Shown here piece by piece: positions 6,622 through 12,399 of a DNA stretch of 64,000 bases (position 1 is its first letter; each line of letters opens with the position of its first letter). The stretch is from Plantactinospora soyae (GTDB lineage Bacteria; Actinomycetota; Actinomycetes; Mycobacteriales; Micromonosporaceae), in contig NZ_JADBEB010000001.1 in NCBI RefSeq assembly GCF_014874095.1, positions 5,022,001 to 5,086,000 of the forward strand, in the 5' to 3' direction. Made by a program: the position numbers and the translations under genes. Below the pieces are notes generated by a model that saw only the letters and a program-made list of their open reading frames with translations, did not search any database and was not told the DNA's origin.

Positions 6622-7251
6622 ATGGCGAAGATCTTCCAAGTGTCGGCCCGTGCGGGCATGACCCGCGTTGTCGAACCGATTGCCCGGACCCTGCTACGGG
6701 CCGGAGTGACGCCCAACGCCGTCACCGTGACCGGAACCCTGGGGGTGCTGGTCGGCTCGATCGCGCTCGGTGCCCGGGGTTACCTGGTGGCCGGCGCGCT
6801 GGTCGTGACCTTTTTCGCGCTCACCGACCTGCTCGACGGCACGATGGCCCGGATGCGCGGCGGGTCCAGCCGGTTCGGCGCCTTCCTCGATTCGAGCATG
6901 GACCGGGTCTCCGACGGAGCCGTCTTCGGTGCCGTCGCGTACTGGCTGGCCACCCAGAACGACCGGGTCGGGGTGGCCGCCGCGCTGATCTGCCTGGTCT
7001 CCGGCGGGCTGGTCTCCTATGTCAAGGCCCGGGCCGAGGGGCTGGGCATGACCTGCAACGTCGGGATCGCCGAGCGGACCGAGCGGCTGCTGATCGTCGG
7101 GGTCGGCGGGCTGCTCACCGGGCTCGGGCTCGACTGGGCGCTGACCACCGCGCTCTGGCTGCTCGCCGCCGTCTCCGTGTTCACCGTCGGACAGCGGATG
7201 ACGCACGTCTACCGGCAGGCCCAGCGTGCCGAGCTGGGCGTCGACGCGTGA
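6622..7251 (+). CDS. pgsA: Phosphatidylinositol phosphate synthase (CDP-alcohol phosphatidyltransferase)
   Basis: Integral membrane enzyme of 209 residues that joins CDP-diacylglycerol to inositol phosphate, the first step towards PI and PIMs. The CDP-alcohol signature is complete: Asp69, Asp72-Gly73, Ala76-Arg77, Gly86, Asp90 and Asp94 in DLLDGTMAR...GAFLDSSMD. About six hydrophobic spans follow. The PI-phosphate role rests on context, because the acyltransferase and pimA follow directly as in mycobacteria. The ATG at 6622 lies nine bases after a TATGGT sequence that may be a -10 element. The stop codon lies within the first unit of a 21-bp tandem repeat. Confidence 0.87.
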   Translation: MAKIFQVSARAGMTRVVEPIARTLLRAGVTPNAVTVTGTLGVLVGSIALGARGYLVAGALVVTFFALTDLLDGTMARMRGGSSRFGAFLDSSMDRVSDGAVFGAVAYWLATQNDRVGVAAALICLVSGGLVSYVKARAEGLGMTCNVGIAERTERLLIVGVGGLLTGLGLDWALTTALWLLAAVSVFTVGQRMTHVYRQAQRAELGVDA

Positions 7252-7354
7252 CCGGGCGGCCGGACGGGTCGACGGGGCGGCCGGAAGCACCGACCGGGCG
7301 GCCGGAAGCGTCGGCGGGGCGACCGGACGCAGCGACCGGGCCGGTGGACGCGTG
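7250..7354 (+). repeat. 21-bp tandem repeat, five units, starting at the pgsA stop codon
   Basis: Units at 7250-7270, 7271-7291, 7292-7312, 7313-7333 and 7334-7354 follow the pattern GACCGGGCGGCCGGAAGC plus three variable bases. The first unit includes the GA of the pgsA TGA. The sequence GACGCGTGACCGG from the pgsA end recurs at the far side of the array (7346-7358). The period is a multiple of three. pgsA and the acyltransferase share a reading frame that is open through the array and broken only by the TGA at 7249. Confidence 0.8.
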
Positions 7355-7374
7355 ACCGGACGGCGGCCAGGCCG

Positions 7375-10378: not shown

Positions 10379-11329
10379 GTGTCTGATTCCACCGCCAAGT
10401 CCGGTTCCGACCAGTCGACGGCCCCGGAGCAGACCTCGAGTGCCGCCCCGGTGGTCGGCACCGCGCGGGTCAAGCGGGGCATGGCCGAAATGCTCAAGGG
10501 TGGCGTGATCATGGACGTGGTCACCGCCGAGCAGGCCAAGATCGCAGAGGATGCCGGCGCGGTCGCGGTGATGGCGCTGGAGCGGGTACCCGCCGACATC
10601 CGCGCCCAGGGCGGGGTGTCCCGGATGAGTGACCCGGACATGATCGACAGCATCATCAACGCGGTCTCCATTCCGGTGATGGCGAAGGCCCGGATCGGCC
10701 ACTTCGTCGAGGCCCAGGTGCTCCAGGCCCTCGGGGTGGACTACGTGGACGAGTCCGAGGTGCTGACCCCGGCGGACTACGCGAACCACATCGACAAGTG
10801 GCAGTTCACCGTGCCCTTCGTCTGTGGAGCCACCAACCTGGGCGAGGCGCTGCGCCGGCTCACCGAGGGAGCGGCGATGATCCGCTCCAAGGGCGAGGCG
10901 GGCACCGGTGACGTCTCCAACGCGACCACGCACATGCGCAAGATCCGTGACGAGATCCGTCGCCTCGGTTCGTTGCCGACCGACGAGCTGTACGTCGCGG
11001 CCAAGGAGTTGCAGGCCCCGTACGAGCTGGTCCGGGAGGTGGCCGAGACCGGGAAGCTGCCGGTCGTGCTCTTCACCGCCGGCGGTATCGCCACCCCGGC
11101 CGACGCGGCGATGATGATGCAGCTCGGCGCGGAGGGTGTCTTCGTCGGTTCCGGGATCTTCAAGTCCGGCAACCCGGCGCAGCGGGCCGCCGCGATCGTC
11201 AAGGCGACCACCTTCTACGACGACCCGGACGTGCTGGCCAAGGTGTCGCGCGGGCTCGGCGAGGCAATGGTCGGGATCAACGTGGACGACATCCCGGCCC
11301 CGCACCGCCTGGCGGAGCGGGGTTGGTGA
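10379..11329 (+). CDS. pdxS: Pyridoxal 5'-phosphate synthase, lyase subunit PdxS
   Basis: PLP synthase subunit of 316 residues that makes PLP from ribose 5-phosphate, glyceraldehyde 3-phosphate and ammonia supplied by PdxT. The conserved start [21 protein letters not shown], the Schiff-base Lys103 in VMAKARIGH, and the phosphate-binding [10 protein letters not shown] are intact. The first 25 residues are a disordered Ser/Ala-rich extension. GAGGAG upstream of the GTG serves as ribosome site. A TAACAT at 10325-10330 is a possible -10 element. The C-terminus ends LAERGW, and its TGG-TGA is the first element of the 60-bp repeat array. Confidence 0.96.
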
Positions 11330-11743
11330 GCGCGAGGAGTGAGCCGGGTTTGCGAGCCCCGCAGTCGCGAGCGGAGAGCGGGTTGGTGAGCGCGAGGAGT
11401 GAGCCGGGTTTGCGAGCCCCGCAGTCGCGAGCGGATGGCGGGTTGGTGAGCGCGAGGAGTGAGCCGGGTTTGCGAGCCCCGCAGTCGCGAGCGGATGGCG
11501 GGTTGGTGAGCGCGAGGAGTGAGCCGGGTTTGCGAGCCCCGCAGTCGCGAGCGGATGGCAGGTTGGTGAGCGCGAGGAGTGAGCCGGGTTTGCGAGCCCC
11601 GCAGTCGCGAGCGGATGGCGGGTTGGTGAGTGCGAGGAGTGAGCCGGGTTTGCGAGCCCCGCAGGCGCGAGCGGATGGCGGCTTGGTGAGCGCGGCGAGT
11701 GGCCCGTCGGGGTCGCCGGTCCCGCAGTCGCGAGCGGAGAGCG
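11321..11743 (+). repeat. 60-bp in-frame minisatellite between pdxS and pdxT
   Basis: Six nearly identical 60-bp units start at 11321, 11381, 11441, 11501, 11561 and 11621. A degenerate 63-bp unit follows at 11681-11743. Every unit begins GGTTGGTGAGCGCGAGGAGT (last ones slightly changed), the same bases that encode the end of PdxS. In the pdxT frame a GTG at 11326 overlaps the pdxS stop (GTGA), and the repeats read as a 20-residue unit ([20 protein letters not shown]) without a stop into PdxT. The extra bases in the last unit are exactly three. Differences between units are few and the reading frame never breaks. There are no unique spacers, so it is not a CRISPR array. Confidence 0.95.
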
Positions 11744-11745
11744 GC

Positions 11746-12399
11746 GTGCCGGCTCGGTCCGTGCCCGAGGTGACCATCGGGGTCCTGGCGCTCCAGGGTG
11801 ACGTCCGGGAGCATCTGCTGGCGCTGACCTCGGCGGGCGCGTCCGCCCGCCGGGTCCGCCGGGCGGAGGAGCTGGAGCAGGTCGACGGCCTGGTGATCCC
11901 CGGCGGCGAGTCGACCACCATCAGCAAGCTGGCCGACGAGTTCGGGCTGCTCGACCCGGTGCGCAAGCGGATCGGCGCCGGCATGCCGGTGTACGGCTCG
12001 TGTGCCGGGATGATCATGCTGGCGACCGAGGTGCTGGACGGCCGCCCCGACCAGCAGGGCTTCGGCGGTATCGAGATGACGGTACGACGCAACGCGTTCG
12101 GACGGCAGGTCGACTCCTTCGAGGCGCCGGTCGAGATCGTCGGCGTACCGGGGCCGAGTTTCTCCGCCGTCTTCATCCGGGCACCCTGGGTGGAGCGGGT
12201 CGGCGACGGTGTCGAGGTGCTGGGACGGGTGACCGAGGGGCCGGCCGCTGGTCGGATCGTGGCGGTCCGGCAGGGCAACGCCGTCGCCACCTCGTTCCAT
12301 CCGGAGTTGACCGGGGACCGGCGTCTGCACCGCTGGTTCGTGGACCTTGTCCGGCAGTCCGAGGACCGGTCCGAGGAGCGGTCCGAGGAGCGGGTCTGA
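11746..12399 (+). CDS. pdxT: PLP synthase glutaminase subunit PdxT
   Basis: Class I glutamine amidotransferase that feeds ammonia to PdxS. The family begins at [15 protein letters not shown]. The nucleophile is the Cys in [10 protein letters not shown], the oxyanion motif GGESTT is present, and the His-Glu pair lies in SFHPELTGD, so the triad is complete. The start is uncertain. GTG 11746 has GGAGAG just upstream; GTG 11761 gives the most typical N-terminus. The frame is open to GTG 11326 at the pdxS stop, which would add about 140 residues of 20-residue repeats. Length from 11746 is 217 residues, close to the usual 200. Confidence 0.92.

Follow-up and report, generated by a model that had tools for sequence, protein, structure and literature searches.

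Our analysis of the tandem array between pdxS and pdxT in Plantactinospora soyae indicates that it is very probably a local expansion of a MIRU-like, interspersed minicistron that would preserve translational coupling within operons. MIRUs are the mycobacterial interspersed repetitive units, reportedly described by Supply et al. in 1997; they are short direct repeats found scattered between genes of the same orientation. The array lies in the window, by which we mean the whole stretch of 64,000 nucleotides that was analyzed, and an earlier note on this DNA had described it as six near-perfect 60-bp units and a 63-bp seventh. This description was borne out. Tandem Repeats Finder (TRF) reports a period of 60 with 6.4 copies and 96% matches across 11320-11701, and a further row of period 120 that reaches 11744. 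Scored with model R1, which was derived from 21 units by sequence alone, units 1-6 are near-identical, at 57.8-64.7 bits each, and unit 7 is strongly diverged (19.2 bits), with a body longer by 3 bp and its GGTTG tail gone, which gives 63 bp in the register of the earlier note.

The frame relations at this junction are likewise as first described. The PdxS stop is overlapped by a GTG in the pdxT frame (GTGA), and this frame is shared by all seven unit GTGs and by the GTGs at 11746 and 11761. It is open from 11323 onward, through all units and up to the PdxT stop (12399), a total of 358 aa. The array cannot be put down to chance, because 20 further places in the genome match parts of its 423 bases, with E values from 3.2e-83 to 2.9e-4. 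Two other tandem repeats were seen in the window: a 12-bp repeat (3.1 copies, 12357-12393) that encodes the C-terminal tail of PdxT and is shorter in P. alkalitolerans in the aligned stretch, and a 21-bp repeat at 7243-7364 (5.9 copies at 72%).

Table 1. Features of the pdxS-pdxT junction, in window coordinates with unit starts counted from the GTG, and genes flanking the element at other loci
Feature	Position	Strand	Evidence or remark
pdxS, upstream gene	10379..11329	+	ORF; Pfam SOR_SNZ, E 1.2e-106
GTGA, PdxS stop TGA (11327-11329) overlapping first element GTG (11326)	11326..11329	+	
Element unit 1, 60 bp	11326..11385	+	TRF, model R1
Second GTGA of unit 1, third frame closed, further overlapping start	11339..11342	+	
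Element unit 2	11386..11445	+	TRF, model R1
Element unit 3	11446..11505	+	TRF, model R1
Element unit 4	11506..11565	+	TRF, model R1
Element unit 5	11566..11625	+	TRF, model R1
Element unit 6	11626..11685	+	TRF, model R1
Diverged unit 7, in PdxT frame, longer body, without tail	11686..11745	+	19.2 bits
Open frame of array plus PdxT, possible extended PdxT	11326..12399	+	
pdxT	11746..12399	+	Gene-caller start 11746; in-frame GTGs 11746, 11761; Pfam SNO, E 9.9e-57
L101, L109: pairs of BPD_transp_2 permeases			Pfam
L106, L107, L112: BPD_transp_1 permease pairs			Pfam
L108: IGPS / PALP (trpC-trpB)			Pfam
L116: thiolase / 3-hydroxyacyl-CoA dehydrogenase			Pfam
L117: NuoG-like / NADHdh			Pfam
L119: dihydroorotase-like / carbamoyl-phosphate synthase small chain			Pfam
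L120: two PmbA/TldD proteins			Pfam

The array is one member of a dispersed family. Its DNA matches at least 21 places in the strain's own 9.7-Mb genome, pdxS-pdxT included (40 of 111 candidates were scored), and the 20 other places rule out a function specific to pdxS-pdxT. Model R1 finds 48 matches at E<=0.01 in this genome, six of which have E values above 1e-4 (unit 7 of the window, the L120 core, a second, short piece at L111, and the weak places L286, L287 and L288). A search of Micromonosporaceae genomes, which the earlier note had proposed, recovered copies elsewhere: the element is present in at least 96 of 200 sampled genomes, our own included, and in 25 of 44 genera, and three complete genomes of one genus (g4, probably Micromonospora) contain 60, 41 and 78 units, counted at E<=1e-6. 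Among 345 genomes sampled across the class and searched under strict filters, model R1 matches four, of which three are Micromonosporaceae and the other holds only a weak, partial copy within a predicted gene. A related GAGGAGTGAGCGAAGCGAGCCCCGCAG repeat occurs twice in tandem within a predicted coding frame in G453, of another family (L289 at about 1150-1240). Among the literature matches listed, no such Micromonosporaceae repeat was found in titles or the beginnings of abstracts.

The core of the element consists of GTGAGCGCGAGGAGTGAGC, a loop of 4, 8, 9 or 13 nt at the loci measured, and GAGCCCCGCAGTCGCGA, followed by a purine-rich tail. The unit body, from GTG to CGCGA, is 45 nt long in 59 of 65 cluster representatives. 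The tandem period takes values of 56, 59, 60, 61, 62 or 63 across the family, which fall into classes 0, 1 and 2 modulo 3 in 33, 12 and 33 cases. The earlier proposal that the period keeps the frame therefore holds for the 60-bp array between pdxS and pdxT, but not as a rule for the family.

With genes called by a purpose-written codon-usage gene caller, all 20 other own-genome places fall between same-strand genes, with the element in the direction of the genes; the upstream gene at L104 is a weakly scored 34-aa ORF. For the wider family we took the best 80 loci of a longer score-sorted list, a choice from the top that favors intact copies, and the caller classed 72 of them as '++'. The remaining eight comprise five loci whose upstream gene reads through the element and overlaps the next gene by 4 nt, two that represent one convergent site, and one with an uncalled small upstream ORF, a homologue of the L104 ORF. 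Counting the five read-through cases and the small-ORF case, placement is intergenic and co-directional at 78 of the 80. Among the weak own-genome matches, L286 and L287 are at same-strand junctions, and L288 (around 1501; C1:2396350-2396380) is away from one; a 30-nt piece of the element at L285 (1501-1530; C1:373731-373760) lies within a long predicted coding frame. Flanking genes were named from Pfam at E<=1e-6 (Table 1), a threshold at which the downstream proteins of L102, L105 and L111 have no match.

The step from the element to the next gene follows a frame rule. We compared 92 co-directional loci (20 from our own genome, including pdxS-pdxT, and 72 from other genomes), which represent 65 downstream-protein clusters. 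Relative to the GTG of the last unit, the downstream gene is at offset 2 in 65 loci, at offset 0 in 27 and at offset 1 in none; of the clusters, 43 are restricted to offset 2 and 18 to offset 0, and four show both. If frame relations were free, about one third of the 65 clusters would be expected in the missing class. Its absence is strong evidence for the rule, but biased, because the loci are the top-scoring copies of one ancestry.

At the offset-2 loci, the ORF of the last unit ends at -4 in 63 cases, its TGA overlapping the next start, and at -1 in two. At the offset-0 loci, the last-unit frame runs into the gene in 26 cases, and in one (L114) a TAA stands 3 nt before the start. Lengths from the GTG to the next start step by three within each class, for example 59, 62, 65 and 71 or 57, 60, 63, 66, 72 and 78. 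Seven loci have a loop that is not 9 nt long (4, 8 or 13); six of these are offset 2, their tail belonging to another length class, L118 (loop 4) is offset 0, and none is offset 1. What is held is thus the sum and not the parts.

On the upstream side, all three entry frames occur: the preceding gene stops at the first TGA of the element in 77 of the 92 loci, at the second in four, and reads through in five further loci. These closing TGAs are at unit positions 2-4 and 15-17, each inside a GTGA; over 170 units, frame 2 is closed in 164 and frame 3 in 167. Within arrays of the own genome, a frame begun at the GTG of one unit almost always leads to an open frame or a GTGA in the next; the units at L102 begin with GCGA, and there the frame continues through the second GTGA. 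It is only the final step, from the element to a real gene, that is frame-restricted. A strict chain of overlaps leads from the upstream stop to the next gene in 83 of 92 loci (seven are broken and two overshoot). For comparison, the chain holds in 48% of cases when a single random deletion of 1-2 nt is made in silico, and at 5 of 46 same-strand junctions that lack the element and have gaps of 20-200 nt. A codon test on 59 units gave 54% synonymous departures in frame 1 versus 27% expected, 18% versus 28% in frame 2 and 37% versus 26% in frame 3. This codon-level signal is only suggestive, because few positions drive the excess in frame 1.

Orthologous junctions were compared for seven own-genome sites across seven Plantactinospora genomes, our own included. 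Of the resulting 49 cells, 22 contain the element, 12 are bare -4 xTGA overlaps and 15 are neither, the last group including our own partial copy at L120 and some remnants or unrelated spacers. Bare overlaps, seven ATGA and one GTGA, are found at nuoG/H in four genomes and at fadA/B in four of seven. Where these two sites are filled, xTGA is present at both ends of the element, and G078 carries ambiguous remnants at both junctions. This pattern of empty and filled sites is as expected for insertion into xTGA, although -4 overlaps are frequent in any case, at 21 of 91 element-free same-strand pairs.

Based on these comparisons, we propose that the element moves by entering xTGA stop/start overlaps inside operons, leaving xTGA at both of its ends. 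Its GTG-started frame would be translated as a minicistron, and the other two frames close at staggered TGAs, each overlapping a GTG (GTGAGCGCGAGGAGTGAGC). Because both closing TGAs overlap a GTG, a ribosome from the upstream gene could pass in any frame, either by reading on or by stopping on an overlapping start and reinitiating, and it would leave the element on the start of the next gene or in its frame. Coupling would be preserved, and the element would therefore be tolerated within operons. Tandem copies could then arise by unequal exchange or slippage.

Comparison with described systems places the element close to MIRUs, a resemblance the earlier note had raised and which is supported by the same stop/start-overlapping behavior at many loci. 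In the 2025 review PMC12548453, MIRUs are described as apparently mobile, inserting at start codons with an internal ORF coupled to the gene at -4, an arrangement that likely minimizes harm. At senX3-regX3, MIRU units of 77 and 53 bp stand side by side, and their make-up differs between strains (PMC4213456); primer sequences for this region appear in PMC2639699. Our element shares the dispersal between co-directional genes, the internal ORF that mostly meets the next gene at -4, xTGA insertion sites found both bare and filled, and a variable copy number (none, one truncated, two, three or more, or about seven across seven congeners). It differs in its host family, which is Micromonosporaceae and not Mycobacterium, in its 45-nt body and 56-63 period, and in sharing the frame of the next gene at 27 of 92 loci. 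The overlaps at its ends (GTGA, ATGA, TGATG) also recall termination-reinitiation coupling as treated in PMC12548453, but here they are carried by a dispersed repeat and not by genes alone. We file the element apart from MIRUs proper, as one that appears to work like a MIRU in another family, the likeness being one of described behavior.

At pdxS-pdxT in Plantactinospora, the element is in the PdxT frame. Each unit would therefore lengthen the N-terminus of PdxT by about 20 residues, with starts provided by the element GTGs. The junction is occupied by the element in five of the seven Plantactinospora genomes, and the PdxT frame is joined in all five. Unit number varies between the species (the earlier note had predicted variation between strains), from about seven in the window through three in G104, three plus a start piece in G113, one plus one truncated and a start piece in G092, and one truncated in G058, to none in G032 and G078. 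Because G113, G092 and G058 have no start codon between the element-encoded residues and the conserved GVLALQGD, an element GTG (or TTG) most likely starts PdxT in these three congeners, and the suggestion of an in-frame extension is supported accordingly. It does not hold as a general picture, since at 65 of 92 loci the element is a small ORF of its own, with a stop that overlaps the following start codon. Of the 80 named pdxT loci, those of P. alkalitolerans, P. endophytica and Phytohabitans flavus have the element at pdxS-pdxT, the last as a single element (model match at 2936) in the -4 arrangement (GTG to GTGA 65 nt). Other repeats also occur at this junction: an unrelated-looking tandem repeat fills it in Asanoa iriomotensis (L049, 1275-1623), and another, palindromic AAGGAGGGGCCCCTTGTTAACG-like repeat is present in the gap in Micromonospora spp. 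(L023, L026, L031, L034 and L040).

In the window strain, the first part of PdxT likewise seems to be element-encoded, although here a later start has to be weighed. PdxT might begin only after the array, at GTG 11746 or 11761, the array being an untranslated or separately translated spacer. Both codons exist in the window; GTG 11746 has a GGAG a few nucleotides upstream and is the choice of the gene caller, and homologues without the element begin exactly here (L157, L035 and L044). We nonetheless consider a post-array start unlikely, though worth serious attention, in view of the three congeners that offer no start between element and conserved core and of a PdxT frame kept in five of five element-bearing congeners despite differing unit numbers and end deletions. 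The repetitive domain proposed earlier found no support: with a nine-sequence alignment, AlphaFold2 gives block-mean pLDDT values of 35-59 over the extension, and in extended PdxT the Pfam matches at E<=1e-6, to SNO and more weakly to GATase_3, start at residue 154, with none over the repeats. We therefore rejected a folded repeat domain.

Three other explanations concern the element as a whole. Near-identical tandem copies that differ in number between species are what a neutral minisatellite enlarged by slippage would give, with frame and gene context accidental; however, the same-strand placement of all 20 other own-genome copies, the frame relation absent from 92 loci, and frame-1 stops in 1 of 170 units versus about 51 in shuffles (the units being related, not independent) make this reading barely credible. 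A role mainly as RNA or DNA structure, in the manner of REP-like stem-loops, strikes us as very improbable. REP- and MITE-type repeats are short, dispersed, foldable stem-loops, and our element is likewise short, dispersed and foldable, with a consensus stem, a variable apical loop and a fold of two units that surpasses shuffles by 1.9 sd. It differs from them in its gene orientation, its intercistronic position and its frame rule, the last of which structure leaves unexplained, and only 1 of 12 consensus pairs has changed on both sides, so that strong covariation was rejected. No known RNA family was recognized between 10200 and 12600 (three Rfam matches, all below gathering scores), and no sigma-70 promoter or intrinsic terminator pattern was found in 11200-11900. 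True homology with mycobacterial MIRUs, through spread or common descent, would account for behavior that is the same as that described in PMC12548453, but it is improbable given that the four class-sample genomes matched by model R1 include three from this one family and that the fourth holds an incomplete copy within a predicted gene.

The minicistron model may also be taken further, if only tentatively. The element could be a three-frame-safe mobile 'ribosome relay' cassette, in which two staggered GTGA overlaps pass ribosomes in any frame and thereby allow landing in many overlaps without breaking the operon. The tandem number would then set the number of reinitiation steps between two subunits, and therefore their ratio or dosage, and some copies might turn into starts that their gene can no longer do without, as in PdxT of Plantactinospora. 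We regard this fuller reading as plausible, but would not yet favor it.

Taken together, these observations suggest that the MIRU way of life, that of a mobile minicistron in translational coupling sites, extends beyond mycobacteria. Within the family, the same operon junctions occur naturally with 0, 1 or n copies, a setting in which an effect of reinitiation steps on subunit ratio would be measurable. The observations also carry a warning for annotation: in some Micromonosporaceae genes the start codon is ambiguous, because an in-frame element adds a repeated stretch that may be either a real N-terminus or a mis-annotation.
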